Below, in pieces: positions 1,951-5,802 of a DNA stretch of 5,802 nucleotides. Each line of letters begins with the position of its first letter. The first letter of the stretch is position 1. The stretch covers positions 5,086-10,887 of the forward strand of contig JAPPKQ010000215.1 in assembly GCA_028819945.1 (NCBI GenBank). Direction: 5' to 3'. A program made the position numbers and the translations under genes. This DNA comes from a bacterium (GTDB taxonomy: Bacteria; Actinomycetota; Acidimicrobiia; Acidimicrobiales; CATQHL01). A model generated the notes under the pieces. The model did not search any database and had not been told where the DNA came from. It worked only from the letters and a program-made list of their open reading frames with translations.

Positions 1951-3474
1951 GTGACACTCCTCGGCGTCGATGTCGGCACGACCGGGTGCAAGGCCGCCGT
2001 GGTCGGACTCGAGGGGTCGGTTCAGGCGACCGCGTACCGCGAGTATCCCCTGGAGACGCCACGGCCAGGATGGGCCGAACTGGACCCCGACGGCGTCTGG
2101 GACGCGGTCTGCGCGGCCATCCGGGAGGCCACCACGGCCGTGGCCGAACCGCCGCGGGCTCTGGCGTTCGCCACCCTCGGCGAGGCGGTGACGCCCATCG
2201 ACGCGTCCGGCGCCGCGCTGGCGCCGACGATCGTCTCCTTCGACGGCCGGGCCGGCGGCTGTTACGAGGAGATGGTCGCCGCCGTTGGCGCGGAGCGGCT
2301 TACTGCAGTCTGCGGCATGGCGCCCCAGCCGCACTACTCGGTCGCCAAGTGGCGCTGGATCGCCCGGGAGATGCCCGACACTTACCGCCGCGCCGCCCTC
2401 CTCGCCTGCTTCGGCGATCTCTGCGCCGTGCGCCTGGGGCTTCCGCCCGTCATCGACCACACGATGGCGACGCGGACACTCGCCTTCGATGCCGCCAGTC
2501 ATTGCTGGTCCCCCGAGATCCTCGATGCCGCCGGCGTGGATGCCGGGAAGCTCCCGACCCCGGCGCCCACCGGGACAGTCGTCGACGCCGTCGCTGCACC
2601 GCTGGCCCGCGATCTGGGCCTCGCCGACGGCGCACTGCTCGTCACCGGAGGGCTGGACCAGGTCTGCGCCGCCCATGGCGTCGGCATCGCCGGCGATGGG
2701 AGCGCCATGCTGTCGCTCGGGACCGTCGCCGTCCTAGCGGCGGTGACCGGCACCGACTCCCCGGGCGCGACCGCGGTGCCGACGGTGCCCTACCTCCAAC
2801 CGATGAAGCGGCTCGCAATCGCCGGGTCTCCCGCCGGGGGCGCCGTCCTTCGCTGGTGGCGTGATCGGTTCGCCACCGTCGAGGTGACAGCGCCGGGCGG
2901 TGCCGGCACGGAGGGCGAGTCTTACGACCGGATCGTCGACGCCGCTGCCGATGTCGAGACCGATCTGATCGCCCTGCCCCACTTCGCGGGCTCGCGCACG
3001 GCCTTCGCCGATCCCGAGGCGAGAGCCGCACTCGTCGGCCTGACGTTCGCTACCGAGCGGCGCGACATCGTCCGTGCCCTGCTGGAGGGCGTGGCGCTGG
3101 AGACCGCCGTGATGGCCGAGCGGCTCGCGGAGGCGGGTGCCCCGGTGACGTCGCTCCGTGCAGCCGGCGGCGGATCGCGCTCGGCGGTCTGGATGCAGAT
3201 CTTCGCCGACGTGCTGGGGATCCCTGTGGACTCGACGGCCAGCGCGGACGCGGCAGCGGTCGGGGCGGCGCTGATCGCCGGTGCCGCCACGGGAATGGTC
3301 GCCGACGATCGCGGAAGTCTTCCCGTGATCATGCGGTGCGAGCCGGAGGACTCCCGTCGCAGGCGGTACCGCTCGACGCTCGAGCGGTACCGGGCTCTTC
3401 ATGGCGCGCTGGCCGCGCGCAGCGACGCGGACTCGTCACGCCACGCCGGCAGCGAGGGGGGTGGGGTCACATGA
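1951..3474 (+). CDS. FGGY-family carbohydrate kinase (xylulokinase/gluconokinase-like)
   Basis: A 507-residue ATP-dependent sugar or polyol kinase, of usual family length (about 500). The N-terminal domain opens with LGVDVGTTGCKAAVV (4-18), whose D7-x-G-T-T binds ATP phosphates, followed by the common PRPGWAELDPDGVW (37-50). VSFDGRAG (95-102) matches the sugar-contact loop, and TGGLDQVCAAHGVGI (232-246) carries the presumed catalytic base D236. The second domain has LSLGTVAVLAAV (255-266), LEGVALETAVMAERL (378-392) and the FGGY C-terminal signature around AAGGGSRSAVWMQIFADVLG (404-423). All key residues appear intact, so it should be active. The GTG start has GGAGGG upstream and places the DxGTT motif where it belongs. 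The stop overlaps the next gene's start (ATGA), implying translational coupling. The tail after about residue 490 (Ser/Asp/Gly-rich) is unconserved-looking. Substrate specificity cannot be read from sequence; its neighbours suggest a ketose destined for aldol cleavage. Confidence 0.93.
   Translation: MTLLGVDVGTTGCKAAVVGLEGSVQATAYREYPLETPRPGWAELDPDGVWDAVCAAIREATTAVAEPPRALAFATLGEAVTPIDASGAALAPTIVSFDGRAGGCYEEMVAAVGAERLTAVCGMAPQPHYSVAKWRWIAREMPDTYRRAALLACFGDLCAVRLGLPPVIDHTMATRTLAFDAASHCWSPEILDAAGVDAGKLPTPAPTGTVVDAVAAPLARDLGLADGALLVTGGLDQVCAAHGVGIAGDGSAMLSLGTVAVLAAVTGTDSPGATAVPTVPYLQPMKRLAIAGSPAGGAVLRWWRDRFATVEVTAPGGAGTEGESYDRIVDAAADVETDLIALPHFAGSRTAFADPEARAALVGLTFATERRDIVRALLEGVALETAVMAERLAEAGAPVTSLRAAGGGSRSAVWMQIFADVLGIPVDSTASADAAAVGAALIAGAATGMVADDRGSLPVIMRCEPEDSRRRRYRSTLERYRALHGALAARSDADSSRHAGSEGGGVT
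3364..3392. repeat. Perfect 13-bp inverted repeat inside the 3' end of the kinase gene
   Basis: The arms CGGTACCGCTCGA (3364-3376) and TCGAGCGGTACCG (3380-3392) are exact reverse complements separated by CGC. The repeat covers codons 472-481 of the kinase (residues RYRSTLERYR) and lies 78 bases before the oxidoreductase ATG. The outer 8 bases of each arm, CGGTACCG, are themselves palindromic, so they are also direct repeats. It could be an operator, an RNA hairpin, or a by-product of the repeated Arg-Tyr-Arg codons. Confidence 0.75.
3455..3466 (+). promoter_or_regulatory. G-rich Shine-Dalgarno deciding the oxidoreductase start
   Basis: AGGGGGG (3455-3461) followed by TGGGG lies just upstream of ATG 3471, with 9 bases between the first tract and the start. 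It lies inside the last codons of the kinase. It supports ATG 3471 over the in-frame ATG at 3336, which would add 45 residues with no family character. Confidence 0.65.
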
Positions 3475-4568
3475 GCAGGCTGCGACTGGGGATGATCGGA
3501 GCCGGCGCCTGGAGCGTGGCTTCGCATCTGCCGCGGCTCCAGCTTCACCGGGATCGCGTGGAATTCGTCGCCGTCAACCGGCGCGATCCGGAGATGGCAG
3601 AGAGCGTGCGCTCGCGCTTCGGGTTCGCCTCGGCGCACACGCACTATGAGGGCGTTCTGGAGGCGGATCCCGACATCGTCGTGGTCGCCAGCCCGGTGCG
3701 CTGGCACCACGAGCAGGCCAGGGCCGCGCTGGAGGCCGGAGCGCATGTCCTCGTGGAGAAGCCGTTCACGTTGCATCCCGACGAGGCCCGCGATCTGGTC
3801 GCCACCGCGGCGGCGATGGACCGCCATCTACTGATCGCACTCGGTTGGCACTACAAGGACATCGTGATCAGGGCCAAGGAGTTGATGGACTCCGACGGGG
3901 GCGTGGGTGACGTCGAGCACGTCTCGATCGTGATGTCCTCCACGACGCGCGAGGCGCTCGCGGGCCGGCAGCCCTCGTTCGCCGCCGATCAGACGGCCGG
4001 TGAGATCGTCGGCGCCGAGCAGGTCCCCGAACTGACGCCCCGGCCGGAGACGCTGACCGACCCGGCGATCTCCGGGGGCGGCTACGCGCAGGCCCAACTC
4101 AGCCATGCACTCGGCCTGGGGCTCTGGCTCACGGGCCTGCGCGGTGCCGAGGTGTTCGCCATGATGTCAGCGCCGCAGGACACGGCCGTTGAGTTCCATG
4201 ACAGCCTGTCGGTCCGCTTCACGAGCGGCGCGATCGGCAGCGTCTCGGGCGTTTCGGCTCATCTGGCCGTCAACGCCGGCAAGCACTATCTGGTGTTACA
4301 GGTCATCGGCTCCGACGGCCAACTCACGGTGGATCTGAACCGCGAGATGCTGATTCGCTACCGCGTCGGCGAGGGAGAGTTGACGATTCCCTTGGCGCCG
4401 GGCGCCGGGGCGTACGACTGCGGCGGACCGATCGACGCGCTCGTTGCGCTGGCGAGCGGCGCGCACATCGCCAACAACTCCCCGGGAGAGCTGGGTGTGC
4501 GCACGGTGGAGATCATCGAGGCCGCCTACCGGAGTGCCGGCAGCGGCCGAGTCGAAGCCGTCGCCTAG
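3471..4568 (+). CDS. Gfo/Idh/MocA family NAD(P)-dependent oxidoreductase
   Basis: A 365-residue sugar/polyol dehydrogenase of typical family length. The N-terminal Rossmann domain has LGMIGAGAWSVASHLPRL (6-23) as the dinucleotide loop, VVVASPVRWHHEQARAALEAG (70-90), and the hallmark EKP at 96-98 in HVLVEKPFTLHPDEA, whose lysine K97 is the conserved catalytic or binding lysine. The C-terminal alpha/beta domain contains GGGYAQAQLSHALGL (202-216), which aligns with the usual GGG-x-L-x-D-x-G-x-H element. H212 is kept, but the Asp position reads Ala208 and the Gly reads Leu210. The ATG overlaps the kinase stop (ATGA) and has a G-rich ribosome site; this and the Rossmann start fix the N-terminus. 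It probably oxidises the same carbohydrate that the kinase and aldolase process, or an upstream form of it. Substrate and cofactor preference are not determined. Confidence 0.92.
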   Translation: MSRLRLGMIGAGAWSVASHLPRLQLHRDRVEFVAVNRRDPEMAESVRSRFGFASAHTHYEGVLEADPDIVVVASPVRWHHEQARAALEAGAHVLVEKPFTLHPDEARDLVATAAAMDRHLLIALGWHYKDIVIRAKELMDSDGGVGDVEHVSIVMSSTTREALAGRQPSFAADQTAGEIVGAEQVPELTPRPETLTDPAISGGGYAQAQLSHALGLGLWLTGLRGAEVFAMMSAPQDTAVEFHDSLSVRFTSGAIGSVSGVSAHLAVNAGKHYLVLQVIGSDGQLTVDLNREMLIRYRVGEGELTIPLAPGAGAYDCGGPIDALVALASGAHIANNSPGELGVRTVEIIEAAYRSAGSGRVEAVA

Positions 4569-4732: not shown

Positions 4733-4783
4733 TAAGGTATGCGAGTCGCCCGGATCCGTCGGGCGCCGAACATATGGGGGGGA
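4733..4783 (+). promoter_or_regulatory. Twin leader module, copy A: -10 box, 5' hairpin, G-tract Shine-Dalgarno
   Basis: TAAGGT (4733-4738) fits a TANNNT -10 box; GGGACA (4710-4715) at a 17-base spacing is a possible weak -35. Transcription would begin near 4745, immediately before a hairpin with arms CGCCCGG (4747-4753) and TCGGGCG (4759-4765), loop ATCCG, and one G-U pair closing the loop. CCGAA (4766-4770) follows, then GGGGGGG (4776-4782) 8 bases before the ATG at 4791. The module aligns without gaps to copy B at 5161-5211. The hairpin would sit at the very 5' end of the mRNA, where it could protect it or bind a regulator; alternatively the DNA palindrome is an operator. Confidence 0.65.
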
Positions 4784-4790
4784 CTGCTCC

Positions 4791-5036
4791 ATGGACGCAC
4801 TGCTCAACCCGATCTACGGATTGATCAAGGCTCTGATGACCTTGGCGGCGAAGGTCATCCTTCTCCCGGCCAGAATCGCGCACGCGCTACCGTTGCCGAG
4901 CGTCGTGTTGAAGCCAATGGACGCGCTGCTGGGCCTGCTGGTCACCGTCGTCGCAGCCGTGCCGATGCCGGCCGCGCTCAAAGCGCACATGACCGAGCTG
5001 CGAGCCGAGTTGGACGAGATCACGGGCGGCGACTGA
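4791..5036 (+). CDS. Small hydrophobic protein of unknown function (81 aa)
   Basis: I do not recognise this protein. It has two hydrophobic stretches. Residues about 3-32 (ALLNPIYGLIKALM, then TLAAKVILLPARIA) are broken by K13, K21 and R28 and look like an amphipathic or re-entrant helix. Residues about 45-63 (ALLGLLVTVVAAVPMPAAL) could span a membrane. The tail (HMTELRAELDEITGGD) is charged and helical-looking. MDALL occurs at 1-5 and again at 43-47, hinting at an internal duplication. There is no cleavable signal or lipobox and no Cys. Evidence that it is a gene: a G-tract Shine-Dalgarno 8 bases upstream, G/C-rich third positions, and its own promoter-like module shared with the next gene. 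The overlapping 133-codon reading frame (4739-5140) is Arg/Pro-rich and looks like a shadow. It is likely co-regulated with the sugar-binding lipoprotein and possibly membrane-associated. Confidence 0.72.
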   Translation: MDALLNPIYGLIKALMTLAAKVILLPARIAHALPLPSVVLKPMDALLGLLVTVVAAVPMPAALKAHMTELRAELDEITGGD

Positions 5037-5127
5037 CACCGGCACGCGGCACACGCCCGCAACCTGACAGAAGCCCACAGCGGGTCGCTGCTCGCGTGGC
5101 TGACGCCGCGCTCCCGGGTGTTCCACG

Positions 5128-5146
5128 CCGGCGCCGCTAGCGCCGG
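5128..5146. repeat. Inverted repeat upstream of the second twin promoter
   Basis: CCGGCGC (5128-5134) and GCGCCGG (5140-5146) form a perfect 7-bp repeat with a 5-base loop (CGCTA), 14 bases before the TACAGT box. It is placed to act either as terminator of the small gene (only a short TTT, some bases downstream) or as an operator covering the -35 region. The remaining gap from 5037 holds one weaker 5-bp repeat, CAGCG/CGCTG at 5078-5090, and no gene that I can see. Confidence 0.4.
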
Positions 5147-5160
5147 ATCGCTCCGTTTCC

Positions 5161-5211
5161 TACAGTTGGTGCATCGCCCGGACGAGCCGGGCGCCGAATC
5201 AATTGGGGGGA
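5161..5211 (+). promoter_or_regulatory. Twin leader module, copy B: -10 box, 5' hairpin, G-tract Shine-Dalgarno
   Basis: TACAGT (5161-5166) is the -10-like box; no clear -35 is seen. Eight bases later comes a perfect 7-bp hairpin, CGCCCGG (5175-5181) and CCGGGCG (5187-5193), loop ACGAG, followed by CCGAA (5194-5198 region). GGGGGG (5205-5210) then lies 6 bases before the GTG at 5217. From -10 box to G-tract it is 51 bases, exactly as in copy A. The stem is kept while the loop differs, and the one stem difference (C here, T in A) changes a C-G pair to a G-U pair. Confidence 0.65.
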
Positions 5212-5216
5212 CACTC

Positions 5217-5802
5217 GTGAAGAGAACCTCGGGCCTTCTGGGCCTCATCCTGGCCGTCGTCCTCGTAGCCGCGGCCTGCGGCGGCGACGACGACGAGAAG
5301 ACGGTTGGTTTCGCCAACATTCTGCGGACGGGTTGCGAGTTCTGCAATGACGTGGAGAACGGTGTGACCGCGGAGGTCGCGGATGCGGGTTGGGAGCTGT
5401 ACGCGCTCGACCACGATCTGGACGCCAACAAGATGCTCGCCAACGCCGACGCCATGATCACCCGCGAGGTGGACGTCTATCTGAACTTCGACGGCGGCAT
5501 CACGAACTACGAAGCGACGCTGGAGAAGATGGCCGAGGCGGAGATCCCGATGATCTTCATCGACGGCCCGATCCCGGCGCCGGCCGATGACGTGTACTGG
5601 TTCGGCGCGCACGGCCAGTCGGCGGGCCAGCAGATGGGCGAGTACGCCCTCGACTACATCAACAACAATTGGGGTGGCAACGTCGACGGCATCTTCGGCA
5701 TCTACCAGAGCACCTGGCCCGATGAGACCAAGGCGCGCATGGTCGTGGCCATGGACGTGATCTCCCAGCAGTTCCCGGAGTGGACGATGGACACGATCAC
5801 CC
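5217..5802 (+). CDS. Type 1 sugar-binding lipoprotein of an ABC importer (RbsB-like), 3'-truncated by the window edge
   Basis: The first 195 residues of an extracellular solute-binding protein, open to the end of the window. A signal peptide (VKRTSGLLGLILAVVLVAAA) ends at a lipobox-like VAAAC with C21 as the lipidated cysteine; the -3 residue is Ala rather than the usual Leu/Val. An acidic linker (GGDDDE) follows. The mature part fits the periplasmic-binding-protein-like I sugar family: strand TVGFANIL (29-36), helix DVENGVTAEVADAGWEL, then an ANADAMITREVDVYLNF segment, the AEIPMIFIDGPIP strand, and the GAHGQSAGQQMGEYALDYI helix. It would capture a monosaccharide or polyol outside the membrane and pass it to a permease/ATPase presumably encoded to the right. 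Unusual is a C40-x-x-C43 pair (CEFC) in the loop after the first strand, where relatives contact ligand. GTG 5217 follows a G-tract Shine-Dalgarno and gives a complete signal peptide. Ligand unknown; autoinducer-2 or inositol binding cannot be excluded. Confidence 0.88.
   Translation, partial: MKRTSGLLGLILAVVLVAAACGGDDDEKTVGFANILRTGCEFCNDVENGVTAEVADAGWELYALDHDLDANKMLANADAMITREVDVYLNFDGGITNYEATLEKMAEAEIPMIFIDGPIPAPADDVYWFGAHGQSAGQQMGEYALDYINNNWGGNVDGIFGIYQSTWPDETKARMVVAMDVISQQFPEWTMDTIT

Follow-up and report, generated by a model that had tools for sequence, protein, structure and literature searches.

The promoters of two neighbouring genes in an uncultured Acidimicrobiia genus share a short inverted repeat, which follows the predicted -10 box at a constant distance. 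This element is real and conserved, and its strong copies are confined to a single locus in a single genus. It is of an ordinary kind. The repeat may well be a DNA operator where one dimeric repressor would block both neighbouring promoters, a reading that we hold at a little under an even call. The mechanism is read from sequence comparison and folding predictions. The earlier note had left three options, a stabilising stem, a target for an RNA-binding protein or ligand, and an operator for a sugar regulator. The operator appears to fit slightly better than a 5'-terminal RNA stem, and the RNA readings rank behind it, because the arms are conserved in sequence, the centre drifts at fixed length and the phasing with the promoter is rigid. 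If this is right, the repeat would give an uncultured Acidimicrobiia genus a concrete site of regulation, and a lineage-specific small gene would share the control site of its neighbour.

The window, the whole stretch of 5,802 nucleotides that was analysed, belongs to a metagenome-assembled genome of 485 contigs that is 76% complete (G000:C423:5086-10887). Genes were assigned by Pfam. The window opens with the end of a gene for an oligopeptide-type ABC ATPase (1-618), followed by genes for a Polyketide_cyc2 protein on the minus strand (664-1083), a class II aldolase (1202-1831), an FGGY kinase (1951-3474) and a GFO_IDH_MocA oxidoreductase (3471-4568). Next come an 81-codon hydrophobic orphan ORF on the plus strand, starting with the ATG at 4791 (4791-5036), and a solute-binding-protein gene, also on the plus strand, which starts with the GTG at 5217 and extends past the window end (5217-5802; Peripla_BP_4, E 7.6e-12). 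In the related genome G001 the cluster goes on with an AP_endonuc_2 (xylose-isomerase-like) protein, a second GFO_IDH_MocA protein, an ABC ATPase, two BPD_transp_2 permeases and an aldehyde dehydrogenase. The last was assigned by NCBIfam in G001 and by Pfam in G007; none of the cluster proteins submitted to NCBIfam passed a family cut-off. Both promoters sit in one transport and catabolism cluster, predicted to serve sugar uptake. G005 retains only a short 5' remnant of the oxidoreductase gene that precedes the promoter, with promoter and repeat still in place (L013, just upstream of 1444).

Both copies of the element read on the plus strand. Copy 1, upstream of the 81-codon ORF, has a predicted -10 box TAAGGT at 4733-4738 (TAGAGT in the aligned G001 sequence) and the inverted repeat CGCCCGG-ATCCG-TCGGGCG at 4747-4765, with 7-bp arms at 4747-4753 and 4759-4765 around the 5-base centre ATCCG at 4754-4758. 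The repeat reads CGCCCGA-ATCGG-TCGGGCG in G001. A G-tract at 4776-4782 is the predicted ribosome-binding site of the ORF. Copy 2, upstream of the solute-binding-protein gene, has a -35-like block TAGCGC at 5138-5143, 17 bases before a predicted -10 box TACAGT at 5161-5166; both hexamers are invariant in the five orthologs. Its inverted repeat, CGCCCGG-ACGAG-CCGGGCG at 5175-5193, is supported by the ortholog alignment and a covariance model, and consists of arms at 5175-5181 and 5187-5193 around the centre ACGAG at 5182-5186. The predicted ribosome-binding site is the G-tract at 5205-5210. The two copies thus have a common 7-bp inverted repeat, CGCCCGG-N5-(C/T)CGGGCG, at an equal distance from a TANNNT box.

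As the earlier note had described, 4733-4783 and 5161-5211 align without gaps; the comparison gives 36 of 51 positions identical. The note's count of about 20 matches in the middle agrees with 20 identities in the central 25 bases, and its stems can pair in both copies, the inner pair being G-C in copy 2 and G-U in copy 1. The CCGAA that it took as part of the unit does not hold up, since that place reads GCCGAA in G000, CCCAAA in G005, CGACAA in G006 and GCAGAG in copy 1 of G001. The likeness of the copies is limited to about 51 bases, bounded by the -10 box and the ribosome site. Compared without gaps, the two upstream regions reach at best a score of 27 over 35 bases. Among 1500 random pairs of G001 and G005 upstream regions 1499 score 25 or less and one scores 35, so that the two copies are more alike than 1499 of the 1500.

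The genus set consists of eight genomes, G000 to G007. Copy 2 precedes the orthologous solute-binding-protein gene in five of them (G000, G001, G005, G006 and G007), and copy 1 is found in two (G000 and G001). When the five copy-2 promoters were aligned ungapped from -70, invariant columns numbered 2 of 44 upstream of the -35 block, 6 of 6 in TAGCGC, 5 of 17 in the spacer, 6 of 6 in TACAGT and 4 of 8 in the bases after the -10 box. They then numbered 6 of 7 in the first arm, 1 of 5 in the centre, 6 of 7 in the second arm and 2 of 10 in the bases after the repeat. All 12 columns of the 6-base core arms are invariant, which upholds the proposal that the stem is conserved between orthologous loci. 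With copy 1 included, GCCCG is present in 14 of 14 half-sites, followed by an inner base that is G in 11 and A in three. The centre is five bases long in all seven copies and its last base is always G. The distance from TANNNT to GCCCG is nine bases in 7/7, a fixed place relative to the promoter with the start site inferred. The distance from the second arm to the G-tract varies (12, 12, 10, 8, 10, 11 and 9 bases). Since the spacings are fixed up to the second arm and variable beyond it, the -35-like block, the second arm and everything between them form the rigid unit, from which the ribosome site is excluded. Conserved half-sites at a fixed spacing around a variable centre are the features expected of an operator.

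A covariance model built from the seven copies was searched in the eight genus genomes and in 198 genomes of the order. In the genus it returned the seven copies at E 5.5e-8 or better and 22 further matches, the best at E 0.51, and no other strong copy. In the 198 genomes there was no strong copy outside the genus; at E 0.1 or below the search matched the known copies in G000, G001 and G005 plus five other sites (E 0.030-0.065), with G006 and G007 not among its matches. Further copies in related genomes had been anticipated; genus mates do have them at their orthologous loci, and a wider family of strong copies does not extend through the 198 genomes. The other three genus members, G002, G003 and G004 (75-83% complete), have only weak matches to the solute-binding protein (best E 6.4e-5). 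In G162, of a sister genus, the solute-binding-protein gene is 72% identical and the repeat is absent. No match was found in Rfam up to E = 1 among 4227 families, no relative in IMG/VR, and a literature search returned nothing on this element.

A wider family of the element was considered and dropped. With up to three mismatches allowed, the pattern finds nothing in G000 besides the two copies. A looser promoter-plus-repeat pattern with one mismatch gave 66 matches in the eight genomes versus 52 for a reversed control; its exact matches number 10, made up of the seven copies, one string common to G004 and G005, and one G003 site. Twelve of the 27 weak covariance-model matches (22 from the genus, five from the order) were inspected. 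Eleven are unconvincing and one, in G003 (E 4.4), has a promoter-like setting: TATATT-N9-GCCCGG-TTCAG-CCGGGC upstream of a class III aminotransferase gene (L051 1501-1566, G003:C47). It keeps the exact spacing of the element, TANNNT-N9-GCCCGG-N5-CCGGGC, and is a lead only, because the one-mismatch pattern hardly exceeds its control. The window's solute-binding-protein gene has no close relative in G003.

A genus-wide class of 5' hairpins was also considered. Hairpins of at least 6 bp were sought in 1.55 Mb of G001, G005 and G007 DNA, with the foot placed 11-17 bases past a TANNNT box that precedes a gene. They occurred at 15/96, 6/44 and 4/41 boxes versus 131/1991 in other bins; copy 2 of G005 itself is part of the first sample, and one hairpin enters the count twice because two boxes overlap. 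Pooled, 25 of 181 boxes versus 131 of 1991 box-bins means that hairpins are about twofold commoner at that distance. The first scan had given 13 of 805 TANNNT versus 0.25-0.76% for ten control hexamers. Among ortholog-conserved TANNNT boxes 15 of 26 had the hairpin in the first test, six of them being the window's locus. A fresh ortholog sample that included new G001 stretches, taken through the same procedure, yielded 3 of 24, a count that does not exceed that of one other bin. The statistic is clumpy, as control hexamers reached 27/77 in one bin of the old ortholog sample. The mean folding energy is -6.2 at the hairpin place versus -5.7 to -6.0 for control hexamers, and strong hairpins precede 6 of 13 lipoprotein genes versus 15 of 69 other genes (rank-test p 0.15). 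The class was dropped with the energy profile, the lipoprotein contrast and the fresh sample against it.

Several individual leaders came to notice in these scans, and a few promoters have kept their hairpin. A flavin-reductase-domain gene has a leader hairpin conserved in G001 and G007 (L108, minus strand, upstream of the ORF at 8310, and L182), with an apparent compensatory change of a G-C to a C-G pair in an alignment read by eye. A lipoprotein-type gene in G001 (L117, minus strand, upstream of the ORF at 2091; G001:C54) has TACGGT followed by the perfect 9-bp inverted repeat GCAGGTTAG-AGTGC-CTAACCTGC; the centre is five bases long as in the element, the arms are other, and it is perhaps another operator. 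Solute-binding-protein leaders in G005 (L125) and G006 (L128) have an AGAAGCT...AGCTTCT hairpin right after a -10-like box and an additional AGCTTC copy ahead of the ribosome site. An identical AACTAC-ACGTAG-GTAGTT inverted repeat follows TACAAT upstream of an 810-codon ORF in G005 and G001 (L094 and L278), and a second GC-rich hairpin comes after it.

The main alternative to an operator is a 5'-terminal RNA stem-loop, common to the two genes by descent. The stem would lie two bases after the start of each message; it would slow decay that depends on the 5' end and so give more output of both genes. We consider this a close rival, somewhat less probable than an operator. A hairpin is predicted in all seven copies, with 24-base cores folding at -12.1 to -14.4 kcal/mol; 6 to 60 of 1000 dinucleotide shuffles of the core fold as well. 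In B. subtilis and E. coli a hairpin at the 5' end is known to stabilise the message (PMC3997798, whose references include B. subtilis aprE and E. coli papA). The excess of hairpin feet 11-17 bases past TANNNT (against about 6.6% elsewhere) also favours the stem, whereas the failed replication of the genus-wide class and the small difference in mean folding energy do not. Taken as an RNA stem, the aligned copies have standard pairs in 47 of 49 cells, and five of the seven pairs are invariant. One pair, the inner one, has changed on both sides in the series G-C, G-U, A-U, yet this covariation is not significant, with 147 of 500 shuffles as good. It looks as if the arm sequence, not the pairing, is what is conserved, and the fixed length of a centre whose sequence drifts, while the spacers past the repeat vary, leans toward the DNA reading. 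When selection was simulated on pairing only, with G-U allowed, 12 core arm sites stayed unchanged in five genomes with P of about 0.04-0.06. The rates were chosen to leave 26-34% of free columns invariant, and 12 of 40 columns (30%) around the arms are so. The simulation gives only a lean, because its tree is a star, its composition is kept constant, and invariance becomes likely as well under stricter selection for GC pairs.

It is very unlikely that an RNA-binding protein or a small ligand has its target in the leader. A stable leader hairpin common to two genes and the constant G at the end of the centre would suit such a target; the unconserved loop (one of five columns in copy 2), the occurrence in one genus only and the empty Rfam search would not. 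The varying distance of 8-12 bases also argues against any fixed coupling of the hairpin to the ribosome site, which is not free in the predictions (mean unpaired probability 0.04-0.64). Another explanation, unlikely as well, is that the orphan ORF received a recent duplicate of its neighbour's promoter-leader piece, so that the likeness would be mainly descent and the repeat would have no shared function. The ORF lies between the oxidoreductase and solute-binding-protein genes (4791-5036 of the window, also 1211-1456 of L003). It has no match in Pfam or NCBIfam, is present in two of 198 searched genomes (G000 and G001), and matches three database proteins, one of them identical to the query. 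This narrow distribution, with copy 1 in two of the eight genus genomes, and the confinement of the similarity to a short stretch are consistent with a recent copy. Against it, the two copies agree in their arms and diverge in the bases that follow the -10 box, in the centre and in the spacer, and the likeness stops just at the -10 box and ribosome site. In addition, the arms of copy 1 are kept except for one base between G000 and G001, two genomes with 73% identical ORFs. The differences between these ORFs number 10, 13 and 23 at codon positions 1, 2 and 3, a spread as for a translated gene.

The operator remains our preferred reading, and its proposed working is as follows. The shared unit GCCCG(G/A)-N5-(C/T)CGGGC would act from its fixed place downstream of both predicted -10 boxes. 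Judged from these boxes, transcription would start near 4745 and 5173, so that the repeat would be centred near +12 with its half-sites about one helical turn apart. A helix-turn-helix dimer would bind the repeat, the effect would be repression rather than activation, and the signal would presumably be a sugar or sugar acid. Counting against the operator, the stem would begin two bases after the predicted message start, a place ideal for an RNA role too; the inner-pair series keeps pairing; and a strict GC-pair demand would likewise leave the arms unchanged. Neither the own-genome pattern nor the genus covariance model established a further regulon member in the carriers. There is also a slim chance of dual use, with the palindrome serving as an operator in DNA and as a 5'-terminal stem in the message. 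Such a genus-specific element would set both the switch and the message lifetime of the solute-binding protein and of an orphan membrane peptide, which would have taken on the element to join the regulon.

The regulator itself was looked for in three families, LacI, DeoR and GntR, and among ORFs around the G001 locus. No cognate protein was identified there, and this weighs most heavily against the operator reading. Predicted sugar-binding proteins are many in the genus (6-20 Peripla_BP_4 matches per genome) and LacI or DeoR regulators are few. LacI helix-turn-helix (HTH) domains number zero in G000, G001, G005 and G006 and one each in G002, G003, G004 and G007. Thus one of the five carriers (G007), in genomes that are 76-96% complete, has the LacI protein that each would have with a LacI operator. 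HTH_DeoR occurs in two carriers, G005 (one, weak) and G006 (two), and in none of G000, G001 and G007. A cognate regulator of LacI or DeoR type is unlikely. GntR matches, weak ones included, number 2, 4, 5, 5 and 3 in G000, G001, G005, G006 and G007, three in G004, and none in G002 and G003. Around the G001 locus no regulator domain was found in 31 scanned ORFs of a stretch with about a dozen more, the orthologs of the window genes having been scanned in the window only. GntR fusions, in which a GntR HTH is directly followed by Peripla_BP_4 in one ORF, are present in G000:C391, G001:C87, G006:C6 and G007:C128, and are not among the listed matches of G002, G003 and G004. The genes of G001 and G006 directly precede a lipoprotein-type ORF. 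As candidates for the regulator these proteins were set aside; they are located elsewhere, and no repeat with the element's spacing is listed nearby.

Among known systems, riboswitches and other Rfam leader RNAs also place a short hairpin between promoter and ribosome site; unlike them, the present element matches none of the 4227 families (E up to 1) and has an unconserved loop. The ompA message of E. coli carries a 5'-terminal stabilising stem-loop. Like ompA, papA and aprE, both genes here would have a stable stem, predicted two bases from an inferred message start. In contrast to these, the arm sequence is conserved, covariation is not significant and one stem sequence is shared by two genes. 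Promoter-proximal operators of bacterial sugar repressors, of the lac O1 type, are centred near +11. The element differs from them in that LacI HTHs occur in one of five carriers and in its GC-rich half-sites GCCCG(G/A), for which we know of no named regulator. It resembles them in that an inverted repeat closely follows the -10 box, has conserved half-sites around a variable centre, and is shared by promoters of a single catabolic cluster.
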